Shown here piece by piece: positions 1,541-30,679 of a stretch of 33,082 nt of DNA. Within the stretch, counting starts at the first letter, position 1. Each line of letters opens with the position of its first letter. The DNA is taken from assembly GCA_013298505.1 (NCBI GenBank), contig JAAFHY010000032.1, forward strand, positions 1 through 33,082. Direction: 5' to 3'. A program made the position numbers and the translations under genes. The notes under the pieces are model-generated. The model was not told the origin of the DNA and did not search any database. It saw only the letters and a program-made list of their open reading frames with translations. Origin of the DNA: Cytophagales bacterium (GTDB lineage: Bacteria; Bacteroidota; Bacteroidia; Cytophagales; Cyclobacteriaceae).

Positions 1541-4500
1541 GTGTTACCACTACTTTTGAAGTTGTATTTACAATTTGTGAATTATACGCCTCTCTCATTT
1601 TTGCTTCGTTGCGCGCAAGTGGTTGCTTTTTTTTTGGCGATTCCACTGGTAGCTCAGGGGCAATACGCAAACAGTTGGATTGATTTTAACCAATCGTACT
1701 TTAAAATTTCAGTAGCACGCGATGGCATTTATAAACTTAGCTATGCCGATTTGCTGGCGTCCAATTTTCCGGTTGGCTCGGTAGATCCGCGACTGATTAA
1801 ACTTTACCATCGTGGTGTTGAGCAGGCTATTTTTGTGCAAGGCGAGGCTGATGCTGTATTTAACCCTACCGACTTCATAGAATTTTATGGGAAGCGAAAC
1901 GATGGCACGCTCGATAAGAATTTATACCAGCCTGTCACGGCTCAGCCACACAATTACTACAATCTTTACAGCGATACCACCGCTTATTTTTTAACCTATA
2001 GTTTTATACCTCCGGGTGGCAAACGGATTGCTTCTTTTTCGGAGGTGAATGTGAGCAACTTGCCGAAAGAAATTTTTCACAACGAAGAGCGGCTGTTGGT
2101 ATTAGGCACCAACTACTCGGCAGGTGCCACTTTTAGCGGCAGCTTGCAAAATACATTTTTTGACGAAGGAGAGGGTTGGTTTGGTGAACCTCAGCAACAA
2201 GGGCGAACTATTGATTACGTGGTAGATCTTGTTACCAACGGGCAGCAAGCGGATGGCTTGCCCAAACTAGAAATTCAATTGGTGGGTCGAGACTTGTTAC
2301 CGCACACGGTGCAAATTCAGGTAGGCGGTAGCTCTTTCCGAACGGTTTCGTTTGTCGATTTTTTTGGGTTTGAAACCAACCTCACCACCATAGACTTAGA
2401 TTGGAGTGACATCCGTGCTGATGGAAAAACAACCATTCGGCTTACGGCCGCAGCGGCAACTACCAACCGATTTCAATTTAGTGCCGCTTATATAAAAATT
2501 ATATTTCCACAAAACTTTGATGTAGCCAATGCAACCGAAAAAAAATATTGGCTAGCAGCTAACCCCACCGACAAATCGTATATAGAGTTTGATAACCCGC
2601 CATCGAACGTACGCCTTTGGGATATTTCTCAACCCGATGATGTGATAAGCATTGGCACACAACAAGTGGGCACGAAACTAACGGCCGTGGTTGCCAACAC
2701 CAGTTCGCCAAGGAATTTGTTCTTGAGCTCAACTTCGCTTGCGCCAATGTCTATCAAGCCAATTTCGTTTCGGTCTTTTCAATCGGTAAATGCCAACTAC
2801 TTAATTATAACTAACAAGGCTTTGATGAAGCCCGCAGCAAATTATGCCAACGTGGTGAAGGCATACGCTGGCTATCGCGCTTCAGCAGCAGGTGGCAAGT
2901 ACGATACGCTTACGGTTTCGGTCGATCAACTCTATGATCAGTTTAACTATGGTGAAACATCTTCGCTTGCTATTTATGAATTTATGAAATTGATGGTAGA
3001 TGTGGCCGATGTAAAACACCTTTTTATCATTGGCAAAGGCCGCGACATCTACACGTACTCGGGTTACAAGAGATTGGCTATTCCGATTACAGAACAGCGC
3101 GATCTGGTTCCTACTGCGGGGTCGCCCGCTTCCGATGCCGCTTACACCGTAGGTTTGGGTGGTGCCATTTCTTATCCCAAAGTTGCAACGGGCAGGTTGC
3201 CTGCAACTAATCCCACGCAAGTGGCTGCTTATCTAAACAAAATTATTGAAACGGAAGCCGCACCTGCTGCCGCAGAATGGAAAAAACAAGGCTTACACTT
3301 GAGTGGTGGGATTAAGGCAAATGAGCTTCCGCTCTTTAGAAGTTATGTTGATGGCTTTAAGTCAATTGCAAGCGGAGAATATTGGGGAGGCAACATTAGT
3401 ACCATTGGCAAACAAGAATCAAATCCAGTACAGCTGATCAATGTGTCGGATCAGGTTAACAAAGGCACTAACCTGATTACTTTTTTTGGTCACTCATCGC
3501 CTGGCACGATTGATATTGACATTGGTTTTGTTACCGATCCCATTTTAGGGTATAACAATCCTGGCAAATACCCCGTGTTTTTGATTAACGGATGCAACGC
3601 AGGTGCATTTTTTACCAACGGTTCTATTTTTGGAGAAGATTGGATTTTGGCTGCCAATAAAGGCGCTCGAAATTTTATTGCACACAGCTCGTTTGGGTTT
3701 GATAATACACTTCGGGCTTACTCTGAAGTATTTTATCAAGTTGGCTTTGCGGATTCTGTTTTCTTGCGCAAAGGAATAGGAGAGGTGCAGCAAGAAACCG
3801 CCAGGCGTTATTTAGAAATTTATGGCGATGGTGTTTTTAATACTACCCAAGCGCAGCAGATGGTGTTGTTGGGCGATCCGGCCGTAAAATTATTTGGCAC
3901 CAACAAGCCCGATTATACGATCGACAATCCAAGCATATCAATTGCATCGCTCGATGGAAGCCCCGTTACTTCGCTCAGTAGCGAGTACGCGCTACGTATT
4001 ATTCGAAAAAATATAGGTGCTACAGGTACTGCTTCTTTGCCTATTCGCGTTATCCGCACGTTTGCCGATGGAGTCGCTAAAACTTACGATTCTGTCTTCA
4101 ACAACGTAGTGCTTCAAGATACAGTTGTATTCAAATTAAAACGGGAGTCACTGGGGACAGGCCTCAATCAATTTACGGTATTACTCGATCCGCTCAACGC
4201 GATTAACGAGACCAATGAATTGAACAACTCGGCTTCGCTCTCTTTTTCGTTTCCTTCTAATAGCACACGGAATTTATTTCCTGCAGGATATGCGTTGGTG
4301 AATAAACAAACTGTCAATTTGGTATTTCAGGCTACCGACTTAACCTCGGCCAGCCGCGATTTTCAAATTCAACTCGATACGACTTATACGTTTGATAGCC
4401 CATTTTTAGTTTCTCAAAAAGTTTCTGGTAAAGTATTGGCAAAATTTTCGGCTACATTGCTCGGTAAAGATTCTACCACGTACTATTGGCGAACTAAATT

Positions 4501-6538
4501 TGATAGACCCGCAGCAAATGAAAGCAGCGATTGGTCAACCACTTCTTTTTCGTATATCAAAAATGGCCCCGAAGGTTGGGGGCAATTGCAATTTGCGCAA
4601 CTGCTCGAAGATGATGCTACTGGGCTGTTGAAGGATTTGCAAGTGAAAAAATTAAAGTACTTAGAAACCATCAAGCCCATTTCCGTAACCACCTTTGGCA
4701 GTGGCAACGCAACGCCTGTTACCAATGTATCTTTAAAAATCGACAATGTAGAATACAACATTGCCACACAAGGGCAGCCGTGCAGAACTAATTCTATTAA
4801 CCTCGTGGCCTTCAACAAAAATACCGTGGTTCCTTATGCTGGCATTCCATTCAGTTTTCAAGACCCACGCACGTGCGGGCGTCAGCCTCAGTTAATAAAT
4901 AGTTTTTTGTTATCGGAATTAGAAACAGGACTGGGCGATGATTTGGCTGCCTATGTAGATGCTATTCAGCAAAGCGATTCAGTTGTTATTTTCTCAATTG
5001 GCAACCCGGGCTATCAATCATGGTCGGCCAATGTGAAAACAAAGTTGGGTAACTTCGGCATCAGCGCTACGCAGATAAATGGATTACTAAATGGCGAACC
5101 CATTGTTATTTTAGGAAGAAAGGGTGCAAGCCCTGGCACTGCCAAAATTTTTAAGAGTAGCATAGCGCCAGTTGTAAACCAAACGGTTTCTGTTAACAAA
5201 ACCATGACGGGGAGTTTCTCTGGTGGATCAATAAAATCTACTTTAATTGGCCCAGCAAAAACATGGGTGCAGTTTAGTTCGAGTACGGCTTTGGTAGAAG
5301 GATCAGATGAAGTTAGTTATTCTGTTTATGGTCGCACCCTTGCGGGGAACGAAACCCTTTTGCAAAGTAACATGAGTGGAAACGTAAACTTGAATTTTAT
5401 AGACGCTGCTCAGTACCCTTATTTGCGTGTAGAGTTGAAGATGAAAGACGAAATAAATCTTACGGCTGTTCAGCTAAAGAAATGGATCGTGCAATACGAA
5501 ACAGTGGCAGAAGGCTTGTTGGTTTATAAAGGATCGCTGACAAAGCAATCGGTGCAAGAAGGACAAAACTTTGTGGCCAAGTATGGATTTGTAAACTTTT
5601 CGGATAAAACTTTTCCGAGCCAATTGCCTGTACGAACTGACTTGTTGAATAAGAACAGTGGCGTGACGGCCACAAGCCAACGATCTATTGCTCCGCCTCC
5701 AGTTGGCGACACCACTCGATTTGAAATTGAAATTGATTCCAAAAATAAAGTTGGGTTGAATGACCTCACTGTGTTTGTAAATCCACGTGTTGTAGCAGAG
5801 CAAGTTTACGATAACAACTTGATCAGTCTATCAGATTACCTGAATGTGATCGGAGACAAGATGCCTCCCATTTTGCAAGTAACGATCGATGGAAGAGTAA
5901 CCAAGAATGGAGATTTTGTTTCACCGAGCCCGCTCATCATTGCTACCGTAAAAGATGAAAATCCGTTTTTGTACAAAGCCGATACACTGGGTGTGCGTAT
6001 GTTTTTGAGGCGGCCTTGCCCGGCTACCACTTGCCCCTACGAACAAATTTATTTTAAACGAACCGATGTAACATGGAGTGCAGCCAGCCAAGCAAAGCCG
6101 TATGAAGTTATTTTCAATCCTCAAAATTTAGCAGTTGGTACCTATACATTCAGAGTAGAAGGCGAAGACGCAAGCGGTAATAAAAGTGGAGCAAAGCCCT
6201 ACGAGATTGAGTTTACTGTTACGGATGCAACCAATCTAAAATTGTTGTCGGCTTACCCCAATCCATCTGCATCGTATTTTTATTTTAGTTTCGAGCTAAG
6301 TGGCAACGTGCTACCTTCTGATTTTGCTCTTCAAATTTTTTCCTTAGATGGAAGAGTGATAAAAGATTTTACCAAAGATCAGGTCAGTCAATTTATTATA
6401 GGCACCAATGAGTTGGCTTGGGATGGCACCGATGCTTCGGGAAGCCCGCTGCCGAGCGGGATTTATGTTTATAAGCTCAGTAGTATAGCGAACGGAAAAG
6501 TCACAACACAAGCCGGACGATTGGTATTGGCGAAATGA
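1541..6538 (+). CDS. porU2: PorU2-like T9SS C25 (gingipain-fold) protein
   Basis: A 1665-residue secreted protein. An N-terminal hydrophobic stretch (about 20-40, ending VAQGQ) is a likely signal peptide. The peptidase C25 domain covers about 417-790, with the catalytic pair visible as H651 in FFGHSSP and C685 in INGCNAGAFF, plus a GDPA motif near 778. A CARDB-like beta domain (about 790-905, NAINETNELNNS) follows, then beta-rich repeats, a second CARDB-like unit near 1390-1470, and a C-terminal T9SS sorting domain from YPNP (about 1570) to the end. PorU is the T9SS sortase that removes sorting domains and attaches cargo to A-LPS. The longer architecture with CARDB domains and its own sorting domain matches proteins annotated as PorU2. 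The GTG at 1541 is the best start, since no ATG gives this signal peptide; ATG at 1519 hits a stop after two codons. No other core T9SS gene is adjacent. Confidence 0.88.
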   Translation: MLPLLLKLYLQFVNYTPLSFLLRCAQVVAFFLAIPLVAQGQYANSWIDFNQSYFKISVARDGIYKLSYADLLASNFPVGSVDPRLIKLYHRGVEQAIFVQGEADAVFNPTDFIEFYGKRNDGTLDKNLYQPVTAQPHNYYNLYSDTTAYFLTYSFIPPGGKRIASFSEVNVSNLPKEIFHNEERLLVLGTNYSAGATFSGSLQNTFFDEGEGWFGEPQQQGRTIDYVVDLVTNGQQADGLPKLEIQLVGRDLLPHTVQIQVGGSSFRTVSFVDFFGFETNLTTIDLDWSDIRADGKTTIRLTAAAATTNRFQFSAAYIKIIFPQNFDVANATEKKYWLAANPTDKSYIEFDNPPSNVRLWDISQPDDVISIGTQQVGTKLTAVVANTSSPRNLFLSSTSLAPMSIKPISFRSFQSVNANYLIITNKALMKPAANYANVVKAYAGYRASAAGGKYDTLTVSVDQLYDQFNYGETSSLAIYEFMKLMVDVADVKHLFIIGKGRDIYTYSGYKRLAIPITEQRDLVPTAGSPASDAAYTVGLGGAISYPKVATGRLPATNPTQVAAYLNKIIETEAAPAAAEWKKQGLHLSGGIKANELPLFRSYVDGFKSIASGEYWGGNISTIGKQESNPVQLINVSDQVNKGTNLITFFGHSSPGTIDIDIGFVTDPILGYNNPGKYPVFLINGCNAGAFFTNGSIFGEDWILAANKGARNFIAHSSFGFDNTLRAYSEVFYQVGFADSVFLRKGIGEVQQETARRYLEIYGDGVFNTTQAQQMVLLGDPAVKLFGTNKPDYTIDNPSISIASLDGSPVTSLSSEYALRIIRKNIGATGTASLPIRVIRTFADGVAKTYDSVFNNVVLQDTVVFKLKRESLGTGLNQFTVLLDPLNAINETNELNNSASLSFSFPSNSTRNLFPAGYALVNKQTVNLVFQATDLTSASRDFQIQLDTTYTFDSPFLVSQKVSGKVLAKFSATLLGKDSTTYYWRTKFDRPAANESSDWSTTSFSYIKNGPEGWGQLQFAQLLEDDATGLLKDLQVKKLKYLETIKPISVTTFGSGNATPVTNVSLKIDNVEYNIATQGQPCRTNSINLVAFNKNTVVPYAGIPFSFQDPRTCGRQPQLINSFLLSELETGLGDDLAAYVDAIQQSDSVVIFSIGNPGYQSWSANVKTKLGNFGISATQINGLLNGEPIVILGRKGASPGTAKIFKSSIAPVVNQTVSVNKTMTGSFSGGSIKSTLIGPAKTWVQFSSSTALVEGSDEVSYSVYGRTLAGNETLLQSNMSGNVNLNFIDAAQYPYLRVELKMKDEINLTAVQLKKWIVQYETVAEGLLVYKGSLTKQSVQEGQNFVAKYGFVNFSDKTFPSQLPVRTDLLNKNSGVTATSQRSIAPPPVGDTTRFEIEIDSKNKVGLNDLTVFVNPRVVAEQVYDNNLISLSDYLNVIGDKMPPILQVTIDGRVTKNGDFVSPSPLIIATVKDENPFLYKADTLGVRMFLRRPCPATTCPYEQIYFKRTDVTWSAASQAKPYEVIFNPQNLAVGTYTFRVEGEDASGNKSGAKPYEIEFTVTDATNLKLLSAYPNPSASYFYFSFELSGNVLPSDFALQIFSLDGRVIKDFTKDQVSQFIIGTNELAWDGTDASGSPLPSGIYVYKLSSIANGKVTTQAGRLVLAK

Positions 6539-13595: not shown

Positions 13596-13955
13596 GTGGA
13601 AGAGCAAAAGAACAGTAACCGTGAAGAGATTTATTCAGAGAAAGTAAAGGCGGGAAAGCGCACTTACTTTTTTGATGTGAAGTCGACCCGTTCCAATGAT
13701 TATTACCTCACCATTACCGAAAGCAAAAAGCGCTTTAACAAAGATGATGAAGGGTTTACCTACGAAAAGCACAAGATTTTTGTATACAAAGAAGATTTCA
13801 ACAAGTTTTTGGAAGCACTCAACAACACCGTAAACCATATAAAAACAGAACTTCTTCCCGATGTTGATTTTGACTCGTTCGATCATGCCCGCGAAGAGAA
13901 AGAACACGATGAAGCAAAGCCATCCGCAGTTGTTTCAGAGCTAAAGTGGGATTAA
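13596..13955 (+). CDS. DUF3276/PUR family DNA/RNA-binding protein
   Basis: 119 residues from GTG 13596. Residues 10-90 (EEIYSEKVKAGKRTYFFDVK, DYYLTITESKKRF, HKIFVYKEDFNKFLEALN) are the beta-beta-beta-beta-alpha PUR repeat found in bacterial Pur-alpha-like proteins, which bind single-stranded DNA and RNA and may dimerise. The C-terminal 35 residues are acidic and probably disordered. A good promoter lies 36 bases upstream, and a hairpin followed by a T-run follows the stop at 13978-14010, so it is a single-gene transcript. The family is near-universal in Bacteroidota; its cellular role is poorly defined. Confidence 0.9.
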   Translation: MEEQKNSNREEIYSEKVKAGKRTYFFDVKSTRSNDYYLTITESKKRFNKDDEGFTYEKHKIFVYKEDFNKFLEALNNTVNHIKTELLPDVDFDSFDHAREEKEHDEAKPSAVVSELKWD

Positions 13956-14270: not shown

Positions 14271-15368
14271 ATGGGACTTAAATGCGGAATCGTTGGCCTA
14301 CCCAATGTAGGCAAGTCAACACTTTTTAATGCAATTTCTAATAATAAGGCAGAAGCCGCCAACTTCCCGTTCTGTACCATCGAACCTAACGTGGGCGTAA
14401 TATCTGTGCCCGATGAACGATTACGAATATTAGAAAGTCTGGTTAATCCACAGAAGATTATACCCACTTCGTTCGAGTTTGTAGACATAGCAGGTTTAGT
14501 AAAAGGAGCCAGCAAAGGCGAGGGGCTGGGCAATCAGTTTTTGGCCAACATCCGCGAAGTAGACGCTATCGCGCACGTGGTGCGGTGTTTTGATAACGAC
14601 AACATCATCCACGTAGGTGGAAAAGTAGACCCCATTGCCGACAAGGAAATCATCGATACCGAGTTGCAATTGAAAGACCTCGAATCGGTAGAAAAAAAGA
14701 TTAGTAAAGTAGAGCGCACTGCCAAAAGTGGTGATGCCAAGGCAAAAAAAGAATTGGCCACTTTAGTAGCCTACAAAGAAACATTGCTTGCAGGTAAAAA
14801 CGCCCGCAGCTTGCAGGTAGATGCAGAAGATAAAAAGGCTATTGAGGACTTGCTGTTGCTTACTGATAAGCCGGTGATCTACGTTGCAAATGTAGATGAG
14901 GGTTCTATCCATACTGGAAACGCTCACGTAGATGCCTTAAAGAAATTGGTAAAACAAGAAGGCGCAGAGGTAGTGTTGGTTTGCGCGGCCATCGAAGCGC
15001 AGATAGCAGAATTGGAAAGTGAAGACGATCGAAAAGTATTTTTGGCCGAGTATGGATTAACTGAATCTGGCCTTAGCCGACTGATCCGTGCCGCCTACGA
15101 TTTGCTCGATTTGATAACTTATTTTACTGCTGGAGAGAAAGAGGTACGAGCGTGGACAATCCACAAAGGTTGGAAAGCCCCCCAAGCGGCAGGTGTTATT
15201 CATACCGATTTTGAAAGAGGCTTTATCCGTGCCGAGGTTATTAAATTACCCGACTACCAGAAATTTAAGACCGAGGCGGGGTGCAGAGAGGCTGGCAAAT
15301 TAGCGGTAGAAGGTAAAGAATATGTGGTAGTAGATGGCGATGTAATGCATTTTCGCTTTAATGTCTGA
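14271..15368 (+). CDS. ychF: YchF/OLA1-family P-loop ATPase
   Basis: 365 residues, the usual length for YchF (363 in E. coli). The P-loop GLPNVGKST is at 9-17, switch [21 protein letters not shown] follows, and the G4 motif is NVDE in place of NKxD (YVANVDE), the substitution that makes this GTPase-fold family prefer ATP. A coiled-coil insertion lies in the middle ([16 protein letters not shown]), and the C-terminal TGS domain (about 280-363) contains [17 protein letters not shown] and [14 protein letters not shown]. YchF binds ribosomes and is linked to the oxidative stress response and translation. The ATG at 14271 matches the family N-terminus. Confidence 0.98.
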
Positions 15369-15384
15369 TATTTCCTTACATGGT

Positions 15385-15417
15385 TTTGTCCGATTAGCTT
15401 GATTTTTAGTACTTTAG
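15385..15417 (+). promoter_or_regulatory. Possible promoter of Cas6-like gene
   Basis: TTTG (15385-15388), a 21-base spacer, and TACTTTAG (15410-15417), 7 of 8 to TAnnTTTG. It lies about 65 bases before the GTG start and 17 bases after ychF, suggesting transcription independent of ychF. Confidence 0.4.
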
Positions 15418-15480
15418 CTTTCCGCATTCTTCAATTTTTTAGAGCGGCTTAAGTCAGGCTATTTTTTTAGCTTTCAAATT

Positions 15481-16281
15481 GTGAGAACCAGAATCGTCTT
15501 TTCATTAAAAAACAGAGGGGCTTATGTTCCCTTTCACCACCAATTTTTGTTGGCACAAACCATCAAGGGTGTTATTATGCTTGGCAAGAAAAGTGAGTTT
15601 TACGGATTTACGCAATACAACTTCTCGGGTCTTAAAGGCCAAATAAAAATTAGCAGAAAGGGGCTTCACTTCTATTCTTCGCGTGTAACACTTGTCTTCT
15701 CATCGTCTAACAAAACTTTCTTAGACTATTTTATAGCATCGCTCTTCGAACAGAAAGAGTTGCTGATCGGCAATTTGCAGTTGGTGCCCGAAGCTACCGA
15801 AATAGAAGAACCAGTAGTGATAAGCGATTCGGTAAAATTTCTGTGCATTTCGCCCATTGTATTGTTGCCATCTTCTTTTAATGACGAAAGCAGCAAGCGT
15901 TTTATATCGCCTCATGCCGATGAGTTTTCGGATTTGCTTTACGATAATACCATTGAGCGAATGAATGCCAGCGGTCGGTTTTCCGAGCAGCAGATGGCCG
16001 ATTTTTATAAATTCCAGTTGGTAGCCGACAAAGACTATATCGATCGCATACAAGTCTTGCATAAAAAATTTGCTCGGATTTACCCGCTCTATGATTCGGA
16101 TATAAAGTATGAAGTACGCGGGTACACTTTCCCTTTCACCTTATATGCACCACAGCCTGTGCAACAATTTATTTACGAAAATGGGTTGGGACACTTTTCG
16201 CACAAAGGTTTCGGAATGGTTGATGTGGCAACAACAGCATCAACTCGTAAGGAAGAAGAGTTGGAAAACGAATACGCTTAA
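15481..16281 (+). CDS. cas6: Cas6-like CRISPR RNA endoribonuclease, orphan
   Basis: 266 residues from GTG 15481. The N-terminus MRTRIVFSLKN is the first RAMP/ferredoxin strand, and VPFHHQFLLAQTIKG is helix 1 with H19/H20 in the zone where Cas6 enzymes keep the catalytic His. The middle has NFSGLKGQIKISRKGLHFYS. The C-terminus has a textbook Cas6 glycine-rich loop, GLGHFSHKGFGMVDV (235-249), fitting GhGxxxxxGFG with a Lys inside. A 17-residue acidic tail follows. Cas6 cuts CRISPR precursor RNA within repeats. No other cas gene and no CRISPR array is present in the window, so it is either an orphan acting in trans or a repurposed RNase. Its stop overlaps the convergent plug gene by 4 bases. Confidence 0.85.
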   Translation: MRTRIVFSLKNRGAYVPFHHQFLLAQTIKGVIMLGKKSEFYGFTQYNFSGLKGQIKISRKGLHFYSSRVTLVFSSSNKTFLDYFIASLFEQKELLIGNLQLVPEATEIEEPVVISDSVKFLCISPIVLLPSSFNDESSKRFISPHADEFSDLLYDNTIERMNASGRFSEQQMADFYKFQLVADKDYIDRIQVLHKKFARIYPLYDSDIKYEVRGYTFPFTLYAPQPVQQFIYENGLGHFSHKGFGMVDVATTASTRKEEELENEYA

Positions 16282-17645
16282 CGAGGATTGACCGGAATCA
16301 AATAATAACCAACCAGTAAATCGGCATTGGGTCTAAATGGCCGATTGTAAATAAAAACCTCGTACACATTTTCTGTTTGGTAGTGGCTTCCTTCAAATTG
16401 AGTTTCGCTTGCTTGATCCGATCGCACCGAATAGTAGTAGTTATACAAGCCTTGTTTTAAAAACTGCCGCGATTCATAATAGCCCGTTTCGTTGTAGTAC
16501 ATGCGGCTATCATCGCTTTGTTGATAACCGTTAAATGCTCCGAGCAAGTAAACATCGCCAATTACTTTGTTTGAAGACTTTAAATAAAAATTGACAAATA
16601 CATAGTTTCCCGTCAATGATGGTTCACCAACGTCTAGGTTTTCGATCAAAAAATTTCCGTTCAAATCGGGGTAGAGTGCATAGGCATCTGATTCTCGGCT
16701 TACGTCTAGCGCAACAGAAAGTTCATAGGGTTTTACGGCTCTGTTTATTTTACCTGTGTTTTGTCCAGGAAAATTAAGCGATCTAAAATCGACAAATCTA
16801 AACTCGTTGCCCCCGGCAAATTGATCTTCGTCTTTGAAAAATCGATACTCAAGACGGTTTGCATGCTCTCTATAAAAACTCGGGCGTAGATCGTTCTTGG
16901 CATTATCCCATCGCTGGTTTTGCCGCACTGTTACATGCATAGTTTCCAGTGGGTTGATGATTTGCTGATTGGAATAATCAATATCAAAGTTGAAAAGTTG
17001 TTTTTTGTTGTCGAGTGTGCCGGTGCCAATTAGTAAATTGTCTCTGGTAAGCACCACTTGGTTTTGATAGATCATCATTCGTTTAGAAAGGATAATTTCT
17101 GAGGGAGAATCGCGATATACCAATAGCAAGTAGTTGCCCGGCAATTTTACTGGCTGTACTTGGTGCCGATAGTGAAAGTAGCGGTTGTGTGTATTGATGG
17201 AAAGGGCGTAGTCGGTAATTGGATTTTCATTAAAGTTGGCAAGAAAGTCTAAGTCCATCAGATTTGATTTTGTCCAATCGTAATTGCAATGGATTAATTT
17301 TACGTAGTAGTTGTTTCGGTTGTCTTGCAGGTCATCGAACTCAAGCACTAAGTTTTGATTTTCTAGTGCAGCTGCGGGCGATAATAGATAATCGCGGGGG
17401 GCACCAAGCTGTGGGTATAGTAGAACGGTTTTTATTTGAGCTTCATAATTTTTGTCTGTGTATTCAATTTCTTTTTGAGAGAAGCTGGCGTGGGTAGAAA
17501 GTGTAACTAGTAAAACAATAGATAAGTATGGTGCGAGCCCGGCCAGGGATAGTAACGAAAAGCCCGAAGTGGGTTGGGTTTGCGCGTGGCCGGACTTGTA
17601 GTGAATAGCCCGCAAGGCCGCCAAAAAGAAATCGGATAGAGTCAT
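16278..17645 (-). CDS. T9SS plug protein (DUF5103)
   Basis: 455 residues. After the signal region, residues 58-455 match the DUF5103/T9SS plug family: KEIEYTDKNYEAQIKTVLLYP, a first beta-sandwich through YYVKLIHCNYDWTKSNLMDLDF, RYFHYRHQVQPVKLPGNYLLLVY, and a second part with DVYLLGAFNGYQQSDDSRMYY and GLYNYYYSV. The plug closes the periplasmic side of the SprA/Sov outer-membrane translocon. Residues 8-37 are encoded by a dispersed GC-rich repeat (copy B), giving an n-region of about 39 residues before the hydrophobic core (YLSIVLLVTLS, 40-50; cleavage near 53-56). No ATG, GTG or TTG occurs between the repeat and the core, so translation must start in or before the repeat; ATG 17645 is the best start. 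Confidence 0.87.
   Translation of the reverse strand: MTLSDFFLAALRAIHYKSGHAQTQPTSGFSLLSLAGLAPYLSIVLLVTLSTHASFSQKEIEYTDKNYEAQIKTVLLYPQLGAPRDYLLSPAAALENQNLVLEFDDLQDNRNNYYVKLIHCNYDWTKSNLMDLDFLANFNENPITDYALSINTHNRYFHYRHQVQPVKLPGNYLLLVYRDSPSEIILSKRMMIYQNQVVLTRDNLLIGTGTLDNKKQLFNFDIDYSNQQIINPLETMHVTVRQNQRWDNAKNDLRPSFYREHANRLEYRFFKDEDQFAGGNEFRFVDFRSLNFPGQNTGKINRAVKPYELSVALDVSRESDAYALYPDLNGNFLIENLDVGEPSLTGNYVFVNFYLKSSNKVIGDVYLLGAFNGYQQSDDSRMYYNETGYYESRQFLKQGLYNYYYSVRSDQASETQFEGSHYQTENVYEVFIYNRPFRPNADLLVGYYLIPVNPR
17537..17627 (-). repeat. Dispersed GC-rich repeat, copy B, inside plug CDS
   Basis: The reverse complement of this block matches 14101-14210: it starts tttttggcggcct, contains acaagtccggccacgc and cacttcgggcttttcg, and ends atccctggccgggc. 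It is read in frame as residues 6-37 of the plug protein. It is distinctly GC-richer than the neighbouring coding sequence. Confidence 0.8.
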
Positions 17646-24414: not shown

Positions 24415-24569
24415 CTAGCACGGAAGTTACTTCCCACCTTTACTGCGGTTCTTCTCATCTAGCGCGGAAGGTATTTCCGTGCTCTCTCCGCCTTTGCTGG
24501 TGTTCTTCACCAGCAAACAAGATGAACTATCCCAACTAGTGCTGAGTTACTTCCGTGCTCTCTAAAACT
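24415..24569. repeat. Three tandem copies of a palindromic repeat
   Basis: The core unit is agcacggaagt / acttccgtgct, an 11-bp inverted repeat around one base. Copy 1 is at 24415-24435 (right arm truncated), copy 2 at 24459-24486, copy 3 at 24536-24569. Copies 1 and 2 are followed by related spacers starting cctttactg and cctttgctg. A perfect 10-bp hairpin (tttgctggtg-ttctt-caccagcaaa) lies at 24493-24517. The arrangement resembles REP/BIME clusters. Confidence 0.75.
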
Positions 24570-24584
24570 AAAATCCAAAACGTA

Positions 24585-24662
24585 AAGCAGAAAAAACTTT
24601 TGGTTAATGCTCTTGTAATTGGATTTACTTTTTCGTTTGCTTATCTACTCTTTGACCTGTAG
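24585..24662 (+). pseudogene. Relic of a duplicated ParD-type antitoxin gene
   Basis: The 39 bases at 24585-24623 match 25238-25276 inside the intact antitoxin gene at 34 of 39 positions. In frame they read KQKKLLVNALVIG against KKKKILVNALVIG. The frame continues with unrelated hydrophobic codons to TAG at 24662. Upstream there is no antitoxin N-terminal half. Repeat copy 3 lies just before this relic and repeat copy 4 just before the intact gene, with similar bases after each (taaaactaaa / taaaactgaaa), so this looks like one segmental duplication that later lost the N-terminal half. The remainder of 24663-24989 shows nothing I can call; a 70-codon frame at 24704-24916 has no recognisable features. 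Confidence 0.65.
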
Positions 24663-24989
24663 TAGGCACAAGTCCCGCGCATTTCCTCGCACAGCCTTAA
24701 GACTTGCGACAGATTGTGTTTAAAAAGGACTCAATTGGAGTAACTTTTCGATCAGTGGATAAAGTAAAATATTTTCAATCATATTATAGTTGCCTTGGAA
24801 AGGAAGTAGTTTTTTTGTGCCGGATAACAACTCAGCACATTTTACCTTTAAACAGATTTCGAAAAATAAACTTAGCATATCCTACTATGGCAAGAAAAGT
24901 ATTTACACTAAAGTAATCCGATAATCATATTAGCGAAAGATAGCTTCCCCCCTAACAAACGCCCCGTTTGTACTCTGGAGGCCTTTCAT

Positions 24990-25031
24990 CTACCGAGGAA
25001 GTGGCTTCCGTGCTCTATAAAACTGAAACTC
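24990..25031. repeat. Palindromic repeat, copy 4
   Basis: ctaccgaggaagtggcttccgtgct plus a tail tataaaactgaaactc, matching copy 3 and its tail (24536-24576). The left arm has decayed (accgagg against gcacgg). It lies just upstream of the antitoxin promoter. Confidence 0.65.
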
Positions 25032-28292: not shown

Positions 28293-29318
28293 TTACGTAA
28301 TAATGTTTACTTCAGGTGTAAGAGTGATATCAAATTTTTCTTTTACACTCGCACAAATTTTTTCTGATAACGCAAGAATTTCTGCACCATTTCCATTTCC
28401 ATAATTCACTAGCACCAATGCTTGTTGCAAATGAACGCCCACGTTATTTATTTTTTTTCCTTTCCATCCACATTGTTCAATCAACCATCCGGCAGGAACT
28501 TTAACTTCTTGATTTACAGTTGCGTAAGATGGTATTGTTGGATTAATTTTTTGAAGTAATTCAAAATGATTTTTTGTGATCGTAGGATTTTTAAAGAAGC
28601 TTCCTGCATTGCCATGCACACGCGGATCGGGTAATTTACTTTCGCGAATATGTACTACCGCTTTGCTCACCGATTGAATGGTTGGAGTAGTGATATTCAT
28701 TTGTTTAAGTGTGTCGTTAATGGCACCATAGCTCACATTCAGTTGATGTCTTTTCGTGCTAAGAGTTAAAGTAACACTTGAAATAAAATATTTTTCTCTC
28801 AACTCACTTTTAAAAACACTTTCGCGGTAACCGAAGCAACACTCGGCATTGTTGAAGATCTTTTGCGCACCATTTGCAAGTTCAATGGCAGCTACTTCTT
28901 CAATTACATTTTTGATCTCAACACCATAAGCACCTATGTTTTGGATTGGTGCTGCACCCATTGTGCCTGGTATAAGTGATAAATTTTCAATGCCACCCCA
29001 ATTGTTTTGTACACAATGCATCACTACATCGTGCCAACTCTCTCCCGCACCTACTTTAATGGTGATGGTCTCTTCTGTTTTGTTTATGATTTCTATTCCC
29101 TTTAGCGCTGTCTTTATAATTAAGCCATCAAAATCATTGGTGAATAGCACATTGCTGCCTCCACCAAGGATCAAATGCTTTTCATTCCTGTAAACATCAG
29201 TCTGAAATAGTTCTTCAAGCTGATCGAGCGATGAAATGGTGATGAAATGCGCAGCCTTTACATCAATCCCAAAGGTATTGAGCGGCTTAAGGCTTTTATT
29301 TTCTTCGATCTTGACCAT
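28293..29318 (-). CDS. murB: UDP-N-acetylmuramate dehydrogenase MurB
   Basis: 341 residues, the type I MurB length. It reduces UDP-GlcNAc-enolpyruvate to UDP-MurNAc with NADPH in peptidoglycan precursor synthesis (cytoplasm). FAD-binding segments: LILGGGSNVLF, ENLSLIPGTMGAAPIQNIGAYGVEI. Catalytic residues are visible by comparison with E. coli: Arg in GYRESVFK, Ser in GNAGSFFKNP (the proton donor), and Glu in LTPEVNII near the end. The C-terminal domain has VPAGWLIEQCGWKGKKI and GVHLQQALVLVNYGNG. It is a single gene; no other mur gene is near. The heptad repeat array lies just upstream, between it and the next gene. Confidence 0.97.
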   Translation of the reverse strand: MVKIEENKSLKPLNTFGIDVKAAHFITISSLDQLEELFQTDVYRNEKHLILGGGSNVLFTNDFDGLIIKTALKGIEIINKTEETITIKVGAGESWHDVVMHCVQNNWGGIENLSLIPGTMGAAPIQNIGAYGVEIKNVIEEVAAIELANGAQKIFNNAECCFGYRESVFKSELREKYFISSVTLTLSTKRHQLNVSYGAINDTLKQMNITTPTIQSVSKAVVHIRESKLPDPRVHGNAGSFFKNPTITKNHFELLQKINPTIPSYATVNQEVKVPAGWLIEQCGWKGKKINNVGVHLQQALVLVNYGNGNGAEILALSEKICASVKEKFDITLTPEVNIIT

Positions 29319-29360: not shown

Positions 29361-29472
29361 GGATGCAGGATGCTAGATACTGGATTCTAGGTACTAGATA
29401 CTAGATTCTAGATACTAGATACTAGATACTAGATACTAGATGCAATTATCAAGTATCTAGAATCCAGTATCT
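29361..29472. repeat. Heptameric tandem repeat with inverted arm
   Basis: Twelve consecutive 7-base units at 29361-29444, consensus RGATRCT (agatact is the commonest; variants ggatgca, ggatgct, ggattct, aggtact, agattct, agatgca). After an 8-base gap, three units occur in the opposite orientation at 29452-29472 (agtatct, agaatcc, agtatct), so the array can fold into a long hairpin. The final unit overlaps the TAG stop of the lipoprotein gene at 29471-29473. Confidence 0.9.
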
Positions 29473-30679
29473 ACTTAAATGACTTGGCTAGTTCGTCTTT
29501 TGAAATTTTGAATAGGCATATCCGCGGAAAGCGACCAGCTACATAGGTGGTGCCACAAACGGCAAGTCCTCCATCTTTTGTTGTAGTCATAGCGGCAATC
29601 TCAAATGGGTTTGAAAAACCTAAGTAGCGGCTTCCGATAAACTTGCCCGTGGCCTTATCATATCCATAAAGTGAAATTTGCTTACTGCGTGTGTTACTTC
29701 CGTACAAGATAATGTCTTTACCGTTTACAGTAGCTGAAATTATTCTTACAGTGGCGTTTGGCGAAAGTTCAGGTAAGTAATTACCTGCTAGGTCTTCGTC
29801 AGTGAAATTACTTTTGTTATCAGCTCCGGTTTTAAAAATAGCATTGGGGACTAAATAATTATCGCCCGAGTTGAATCTCGATGCTGCAAACTTAGTCCCG
29901 TCTAGCGGCACAATACTGCTGAAACCACCATTGGCCGCTTGACCAAATACGATGGCAGGTTTTGAATTGTCTGCGAAGTCTGCAAAAACCAATGAGAAGT
30001 TATACTGATAAAATCCATTGAAGAAATACTTGCCAGCAGCTTTACCAACTTGAAACGGAAATTGACGACCTGTGCGAGTAAAGTGGGTAATAAACTGCGC
30101 TTCTACGCCATCTCCAGCACCTATGCTAAAACCTTTAGAGTTTGTTGTGACTCCGGCAGTACTTACCAAATCCACAACACTTTCTTTTTTTAGATTATCA
30201 TACCGCAGCAGTAGAAAATTTCCGTTATCGTTGAATGCTGCAGCCGGGTAGCCAATAGCAGCATCTCCAACAACGGCTATTGTTTTACTAATCCCACCAT
30301 TTGCATCCACTTCACATAGTTGAATATTCAATCCAACGGGCGTCATACTAAAAAAATAGTACTTACCATTTGTCTCTAACAATGGCCCGATAGGCCCGAC
30401 TTTATCCGTTGGCACTTCTAAGTCTGAAACATAAGCACCTAGTTTATCAATTTTCATTAAGTAAGTGCCGCTTAGATTAGAATCAGTTAATCTTCTCCCT
30501 CCCAGAATCAAAAAACCTTCATCGGGTGTTTGCTTTATATCTATCGGATAATAAGAAGCATCAAACTTATTACTATCGTAGATGCGGGTAAAGTTTGCTT
30601 GGTCGGTTGCCAGATCAGCATCTTTAGCGCACGATGCAGCTAGAAAAATAAGTGTAAATAATTGAATATATGTCTTCAT
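29471..30679 (-). CDS. Lipoprotein, probable beta-propeller
   Basis: 402 residues. MKTYIQLFTLIFLAASCAKD is a lipoprotein signal with lipobox AASC (Cys17). The mature chain is beta-rich with propeller-like repeats of the form G-x-F-L-I-L-G-G-R (DEGFLILGGRRLTDSNLSG, NGNFLLLRYDN, DGGLAVCGTTYVAG), about seven blades by eye. No catalytic motif is seen. It starts 5 bases after the stop of the outer-membrane barrel gene, so it is the last gene of a three-gene operon. The stop codon is embedded in the inverted heptad repeat. Confidence 0.8.
   Translation of the reverse strand: MKTYIQLFTLIFLAASCAKDADLATDQANFTRIYDSNKFDASYYPIDIKQTPDEGFLILGGRRLTDSNLSGTYLMKIDKLGAYVSDLEVPTDKVGPIGPLLETNGKYYFFSMTPVGLNIQLCEVDANGGISKTIAVVGDAAIGYPAAAFNDNGNFLLLRYDNLKKESVVDLVSTAGVTTNSKGFSIGAGDGVEAQFITHFTRTGRQFPFQVGKAAGKYFFNGFYQYNFSLVFADFADNSKPAIVFGQAANGGFSSIVPLDGTKFAASRFNSGDNYLVPNAIFKTGADNKSNFTDEDLAGNYLPELSPNATVRIISATVNGKDIILYGSNTRSKQISLYGYDKATGKFIGSRYLGFSNPFEIAAMTTTKDGGLAVCGTTYVAGRFPRICLFKISKDELAKSFK

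Follow-up and report, generated by a model that had tools for sequence, protein, structure and literature searches.

An isolated gene for a Cas6-like protein among the housekeeping genes of a Cytophagales bacterium raises the question of what such a protein does there, i.e., whether it still serves a CRISPR array at a distance, persists as a remnant, or has been taken over by the cell. The window denotes the whole stretch of DNA analysed (33,082 nucleotides); the features on which the argument draws are collected in Table 1.

Table 1. The orphan cas6 locus: features, positions in the window, strand, and evidence
Feature	Position	Strand	Evidence
ychF, upstream neighbour	14271..15368	+	upstream in 70/72 related loci
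ychF-cas6 intergenic region with conserved leader	15369..15480	+	leader comparison
TACTTTAG, conserved -7-like promoter box	15410..15417	+	leader alignment
Leader hairpin 1 (probable), CCGC [AUUCUUCAAUUUUUUAGA] GCGG	15422..15447	+	folding, shuffles, arm-swap
Second U-rich element GCTA-TTTTTT-TAGC (possible hairpin 2), upstream of start codon	15458..15471	+	leader comparison
Orphan Cas6-family protein	15481..16281	+	GTG start, 266 aa; profiles, fold, orthologue alignment
Codons 17-21, PFHHQ, conserved loop before helix 1	15529..15543	+	H20 in 101/101; His at position 19 in 98
Codons 48-54, FSGLKGQ, orphan-specific block	15622..15642	+	alignment comparison
Codons 235-246, glycine-rich loop GLGHFSHKGFGM	16183..16218	+	kept in orphans and CRISPR-type Cas6
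T9SS-plug (DUF5103, PF17116) gene, convergent downstream neighbour	16278..17645	-	downstream in 65/72 related loci

Family membership and the CRISPR locus of the source genome

By profile and predicted fold, the gene is a genuine member of the Cas6 family, and on this point the Pfam, NCBIfam, and PADLOC profiles and the predicted structure agree with the earlier note on this DNA, made from the sequence alone. The window protein lies above the cut-offs of curated Cas6 profiles, matching Pfam Cas_Cas6_C (PF01881) at E 3.5e-22 (80 bits, cut-off 23) and NCBIfam TIGR01877 with 68.9 bits (cut-off 58.65), and its top match in PADLOC is Cas6b (1.6e-30); all 19 members of the family alignment (A1) match TIGR01877 at E 1e-5. 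The AlphaFold model, built on 19 orthologues (mean pLDDT 73.8, pTM 0.74), exhibits the tandem ferredoxin-like (RAMP) fold of Cas6. With this predicted model as query, the top nine structures found by Foldseek are all of Cas6 type (TM 0.62-0.71 by query), PH0350 (3qjj), 5yi6, 3ufc, and PfuCas6 being ranked first, and the PDB relatives closest in sequence are 3ufc (best) and 5yi6. Both features on which the identification had originally been based, a glycine-rich loop and an N-terminal RAMP strand, are present: a strand at residues 2-9 opens the predicted model, and the loop possesses G243 and G245 in 101/101 orphans, with F or Y at position 244 in all of them. Residue counts, here and below, refer to 101 distinct orphans (two overlapping fetches, identical sequences removed), compared with 21 CRISPR-type Cas6 proteins.

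Concerning the source genome (3.96 Mb in 206 contigs, 98.93% complete, 2.19% contaminated), the gene is the sole match both of the Cas6 C-terminal profile and of A1 used as a query, and the profile PF10040 finds no match; since the assembly is fragmented, this absence elsewhere in the genome is strong but incomplete. Direct repeats (those of the 20 largest among at least 60 families), tandem repeats, and Rfam matches at gathering cut-offs gave no sign of a CRISPR-like array in the window. The gene thus stands as described at the outset, as an isolated Cas6 with no array in the window, between ychF and the T9SS-plug gene and near a sigma-70-type factor.

The genome does have a CRISPR locus elsewhere. 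Its one Cas1 gene is situated on a contig of 6.5 kb, separate from that of the orphan, together with the genes for a 1219-residue Cas9-type protein (RuvC III, HNH) and for Cas2, and with an array of at least four 48-nt repeats that have a 77-nt period and head to the contig end. The layout of this locus is type II-C-like and includes no cas6; no second CRISPR locus was found in the genome. Cas10 was not found in the genome, and the Cas3 profile yielded nothing over cut-off, with helicase-like matches below threshold. As a separate observation on the same contig (C42, L075), an open reading frame at 3976-4638, between cas9 and cas1, has the look of an IS200/REP-associated transposase, its motif NHLHLLV being presumably typical of such proteins, and matches nothing in Pfam at 1e-6; a truncated duplicate of its start is found at 3751-3969.

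The earlier note had suggested a processing enzyme that acts in trans on a distant array. In favour of a detached crRNA processor, the array beside cas9-cas1-cas2 is accompanied by no cas6, and of the 28 genomes that carry the orphan and were scanned for Cas1, 15 have it. In type II systems, however, crRNA is matured by tracrRNA and RNase III, and Cas6 is not normally used. Furthermore, the other 13 of the 28 genomes have neither Cas1 nor Cas10, nor Cas3 over cut-off, independence from CRISPR being judged in these 13 by the three genes. The single genome with Cas10 among 20 scanned (G035) and the single one with Cas3 over cut-off among 18 (G117) are both outside the 13, and 57 of the 98 own-family genomes scanned lack Cas1. 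No link of the orphan to a CRISPR array or to class 1 cas genes was thus found in its own genome or in the relatives scanned, and it is not tied to cas9-cas1-cas2 either by location, being on another contig, or by occurrence, given the 13 genomes without Cas1. As will be seen below, the canonical catalytic residues are missing and inheritance tracks that of housekeeping genes. The suggestion of a processor acting in trans is therefore unsupported, and we regard it as highly improbable. A CRISPR locus elsewhere in the genome without a cas6 of its own had been named beforehand as the finding that would make the gene a mere detached component; the type II-C-like locus answers to this description in letter, yet not in sense, because type II systems have no need of Cas6.

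Distribution, neighbourhood, and inheritance

The scan of named species genomes yielded 72 related loci, the titles of which name Cyclobacteriaceae, Flammeovirgaceae, Fulvivirgaceae, Cytophagales, named Cytophagales species, and unplaced Bacteroidetes/Bacteroidia. Of 75 Cas6 matches, 12 were dropped as fragments, as frameshifted, or because their first residues were missing. The neighbourhood of these loci is nearly constant (Table 1). The two loci without ychF upstream begin (L066) or end (L072) inside cas6, and among the seven without the T9SS-plug gene downstream six stop at a contig edge inside cas6, such that L014 constitutes the true exception. As a guide to function the neighbourhood was considered and rejected: ychF, the T9SS plug, DUF58, and the sigma factor share no common pathway.

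Across the order, A1 finds a match in 176 of 391 genomes; for 173 the E value is 1e-56 or better, whereas the other three matches are weak (1e-7 to 1e-9). Two Cas6-type matches are present in 13 of the 176 (e.g., G085 and G117). The remaining 215 genomes show no match to A1, which indicates that the orphan is dispensable in many lineages. Among the genomes listed for the own family, with near kin listed first, 84 possess the orphan and 3 do not; the 195 genomes of the order beyond this listing are all without a match. A sample of the phylum (392 genomes) contains nine strong matches, all from the own family, and weak matches in 34 other genomes (best 2e-19).

In other families of the order, ychF adjoins the gene in 9 of 20 loci (L131, L132, L134-L139, and L148); of the remaining 11, one (L133, on a short contig) has retained the plug gene, and 10 are placed elsewhere. 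From these 10 loci and L139, 79 of the 80 neighbour open reading frames found were scanned with PADLOC. One of the 79, in one of the loci L139-L150, matches RtcR, a CARF-domain regulator of RNA repair. Clean empty sites exist as well: in 4 of 14 gene-less genomes ychF and the plug gene adjoin each other with no tblastn trace of cas6 (L153, L154, L156, and L158, three of them from the own family), and such genomes offer natural controls for expression studies.

A stand-alone defence protein binding or cutting phage RNA might be considered, RAMP proteins being mostly defence proteins by general knowledge, and single neighbour open reading frames in the other-family loci do match a type IIG restriction enzyme, SoFic, IetA, DrmMI, and RtcR. 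These PADLOC matches, however, are confined to one open reading frame each and belong partly to housekeeping-like families, no Cas family is among the 25 of 33 PADLOC families listed for the 79 frames, and the window's clade is characterized by a fixed housekeeping neighbourhood and slow vertical evolution, so that a role in defence is very unlikely.

The orphan and its housekeeping neighbours diverge in parallel, which is the pattern of vertical inheritance. Its pairwise distances correlate with those of DUF5103 (r 0.87), ABC-F (0.86), DUF58 (0.84), DUF3276 (0.80), and ychF (0.65), compared with 0.44-0.85 for the neighbours among themselves. Purifying selection is evident from dN/dS values of 0.000-0.039 in the 8 scorable of 12 pairs, 4 pairs being saturated and several of the other eight having dS above 1, and 76 of 267 alignment columns are invariant across 19 diverse orthologues. 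In a tree of 30 orphans and 21 Cas6 proteins of other classes of the phylum, the two groups are split by a 100/100 branch, although the joining branches are long and drew a warning from the tool. The neighbours of the latter 21 (44 of 51 open reading frames scanned) include Csm3 (6), Csx1-type proteins (5), and Cmr1 (4), which places at least part of them in type III CRISPR loci; a direct-repeat search of the short flanks of 6 of these 21 loci revealed no CRISPR-like array.

The same data bear on the idea of a decaying, functionless relic, left behind when a class 1 CRISPR-Cas system was lost. Such a relic would fit a gene that stands alone, that is cleanly absent from the same site in some genomes, and the canonical catalytic centre of which is gone; but the dN/dS values contradict it, and together with the invariant columns and the presence across much of the order they argue against neutral decay, leaving the relic scarcely credible. 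Domestication, also raised in the earlier note, best explains a conserved isolated Cas6 that combines the lack of a CRISPR link with vertical inheritance and purifying selection.

Catalytic centre and conserved residues

The description of the gene as an intact Cas6 stands for the open reading frame, which is unbroken, but not for the canonical catalytic residues. In PfuCas6 the catalytic triad consists of Tyr31, His46, and Lys52 (PMC3652601), and the columns taken to correspond to these residues were chosen by sequence motifs. The His column is a gap in 101/101 orphans and holds His in 20/21 CRISPR-type proteins; Tyr is found in 0/101 orphans (Lys in 84) and 19/21 CRISPR-type proteins, and Lys at the third column in 6/101 and 20/21, respectively. 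The canonical Tyr/His/Lys triad is thus lacking. The segment that bears the catalytic His in CRISPR-type Cas6, where it precedes the position of FSGLKGQ, is absent from all 101 orphans.

The orphans possess conserved residues of their own. Those invariant only in this family include R4, N11, F18, H20, Q21, K52, G53, Q54, K195, and T216, and a set of basic residues (K52, K195, K196, R199, and R213) is invariant in the orphans, positions 199 and 213 being mostly Lys in CRISPR-type proteins. From the lost active-site residues, the retained glycine-rich loop, and the family's own invariant residues we infer that selection holds an RNA-facing surface and not the old active site.

Loss of the catalytic His is no proof of lost cleavage, since SsoCas6 is active without it, using lysines and an arginine, Lys28 above all; K29 in helix 1 of the orphan may by its position recall this residue. 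Published active sites of Cas6 are plastic, the catalytic His being situated in helix 1 in Cas6e and Cas6f; these enzymes, moreover, work slowly and possibly serve as RNA chaperones (PMC3652601, also for SsoCas6). On such grounds the orphan might be an RNase that was domesticated and now relies on a rearranged active site, in which H19/H20 or K29, along with the invariant basic residues, would replace the triad and cut a cellular hairpin, perhaps in the protein's own leader. The constancy of H20 (101/101), H19 (98/101), K29 (84/101), and the invariant basic residues speaks for this reading, as does the plasticity just mentioned. However, His is also found at the position of H20, alongside the canonical His, in 4 of the 21 CRISPR-type proteins, and the solved Cas6 5yi6 combines His at that position with an LHN segment, so that H20 may be a structural or binding residue. 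We consider such an RNase a serious possibility, albeit a minority one.

Leader, proposed role, and comparison with known systems

The leader of the gene is conserved and contains, in this order, a TACTTTAG-type box, a hairpin, a U-rich element, and the start codon. In the window, ychF and cas6 are 112 nt apart; over 71 rows the median distance is 128 nt. Starts and leaders were compared in 70 loci (71 rows, the window being listed twice, as L074), with L019 (match from residue 7), L066, and L072 left aside. The box resembles TAnnTTTG, which we take to be the promoter consensus of Bacteroidetes, and hairpin 1 would accordingly be close to the 5' end of the mRNA, if that end is placed by the promoter-like box.

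The start codon of cas6 is GTG or TTG in 70/70 loci, with no in-frame upstream ATG, and among 20 orphans of other families 14 start with GTG or TTG, 5 with ATG, and 1 ambiguously. Among the neighbours, ychF starts with ATG in 66/66 and ABC-F in 44/50 loci. DUF3276, presumably a Pur-alpha-like nucleic-acid-binding family, has GTG in 55/55 related loci, which means that a constant non-ATG start is not unique to cas6; in the window this gene lies at 13596-13955, and its non-ATG start is as constant as that of cas6.

Conservation of the U-rich leader element is well supported by comparison with the leaders of other genes. In 85 of 110 orphan rows (112 Cas6 rows minus 2 CRISPR-type), or 80 of 105 distinct sequences, TTTTTA is no more than 45 nt away from the start, as against 24/99 for ychF, 10/57 for ABC-F, 8/63 for DUF3276, 10/29 for DUF58, 0/21 for the gene behind the sigma factor, and 0/6 for the sorbosone-type gene. 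The T content of Cas6 leaders (0.42 vs 0.23-0.34 in controls) explains part of this signal.

Hairpin 1 is probably real in the window's clade. Of 66 leaders, L067, L068, and L044 being excluded here as well, 40 fold better than their mononucleotide shuffles at p<=0.05 (a first run gave 34); these 66 leaders are related, and the counts are therefore not independent events. Controls reach this level in 7/60 cases (ychF 1/12, DUF3276 1/12, DUF58 3/22, ABC-F 0/7, sorbosone-type 2/4, and single window genes 0/3). The arms vary yet still pair in L007, L027, L038, L058, L064, and L070; the hairpin fails in L055, L056, L059, L061, L062, L069, L071, and others. When arms were swapped among all 55 leaders, 1 of 2000 swaps paired equally well, i.e., the test was passed; it failed for the 19 leaders without CCGC in the 5' arm (572 of 2000). 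RNAalifold gave no consensus pairs on the raw MAFFT alignment of the leaders, a result that counts against the hairpin as well as against the alignment, as the positions of the arms shift between leaders. With a length of only 4-8 base pairs, hairpin 1 would in our judgement yield a covariance model that is unspecific in 4 Mb. The pattern CCGC-N8-20-TTTTTTA-N0-3-GCGG matches nothing in the genome but the leader, so the search found no target beyond it; the reversed control matches twice, and a regulon with these arms is thus not detectable.

The earlier note had pointed to hairpin repeats of the genome as possible substrates. The window contains four copies of a palindromic repeat of the GGAAGT-ACTTCCGTGCT type at 24415-25016 (0 expected); a stricter palindrome pattern has 0 matches in the genome and also misses the copies in the window. 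Around ten tandem GATACTA 7-mers are situated at 29369-29441, between the open reading frames 28293-29318 and 29471-30679. As a ligand of the protein, its own mRNA would be the best candidate, better than the palindromic repeat hairpins, because the leader combines the U-rich element with the clade's hairpin behind a promoter-like box and with a GTG/TTG start.

Cas6 proteins grip a short hairpin or a single-stranded repeat by means of the glycine-rich loop and the cleft between the two RAMP domains. As the orphans keep these RNA-gripping parts and have lost the cutting residues, a specific RNA-binding protein is proposed: the gene would encode a domesticated Cas6 that serves the cell as an RNA-binding protein, possibly cleaving slowly and maybe regulating its own mRNA, a reading to which we assign a probability of roughly 55%. 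An ancestor within the Cytophagales would have taken a Cas6 of the CRISPR kind into its core chromosome, where it would have been inherited vertically thereafter with no CRISPR system required. Comparison with CRISPR-type proteins shows that the segment with the catalytic His, the Tyr, and nearly always the Lys were then lost, that the tandem-RAMP fold and the glycine-rich loop were kept, and that family-specific invariant residues, several of them basic, were acquired. The product is most likely a sequence- or hairpin-specific RNA binder with at most slow cleavage. Autoregulated RNA-binding proteins bind their own leader and damp their own translation, and the orphan could likewise bind its 5' leader near the weak start codon, which would keep its own level low. 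The wider proposal, that at an early stage and across much of the Cytophagales a crRNA enzyme became a core RNA-binding regulator of cellular mRNAs by deletion of the cutting centre and formation of a new RNA-contacting surface, with its own mRNA as first target and short U-rich 5' hairpins recognized with no guide RNA, is put forward tentatively, its chances lying slightly below even.

If true, this would constitute a CRISPR-derived post-transcriptional regulator in need of no guide RNA. Cas proteins are familiar chiefly as immune-system components with fast evolution and horizontal movement. A Cas6 spread across much of an order, inherited as its housekeeping neighbours are and stripped of its canonical active site, would clearly exemplify in nature how a CRISPR protein enters cell physiology; the orphan family offers a simple test of Cas6 as a stand-alone RNA-binding regulator. 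For annotation, it follows that the name Cas6 alone is not evidence of a class 1 CRISPR system. Pipelines using TIGR01877 would call the orphan a CRISPR endoribonuclease, and databases based on this model probably already name such proteins Cas6, their existence in annotation being not new. What appears to be new is their interpretation as a domesticated lineage: no report of this Cas6 family was found in the accessible parts of open-access full text, and the mentions of cas6 in the accessible part of PMC11742911 concern ordinary CRISPR loci.

Among known systems, the orphan shares with the Cas6 crRNA endoribonucleases (TIGR01877/PF01881; PfuCas6 3i4h and 3pkm; 5yi6) the profile, the predicted tandem-RAMP fold, and the glycine-rich loop, whereas it is accompanied by no adjoining CRISPR genes, is inherited vertically beside ychF, and has lost the catalytic Tyr and His in 101/101 and the Lys in 95/101 sequences. 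Since both the canonical triad and a link to CRISPR are absent, we speak of a Cas6-derived protein and avoid the term CRISPR endoribonuclease.

Closest, together with SsoCas6, are the non-catalytic Pyrococcus homologues, PfuCas6nc (3ufc) as the best PDB match in sequence and PH0350 (3qjj), which we take to be catalytically inactive, as the best match in structure. The Pyrococcus homologues are archaeal and come from organisms with CRISPR systems. The Cytophagales orphans differ from them as a separate lineage with invariant motifs of its own, found also in genomes without detected Cas1, Cas10, or Cas3. 3ufc is the non-catalytic Cas6 of P. furiosus (PMC3652601). SsoCas6, finally, resembles the orphan in that the canonical His is missing in both and in its reliance on basic residues (same source); it processes crRNA, however, whereas the orphan has no linked array or effector, and it keeps Lys51, the equivalent of which is not kept in 95 of the 101 orphans.
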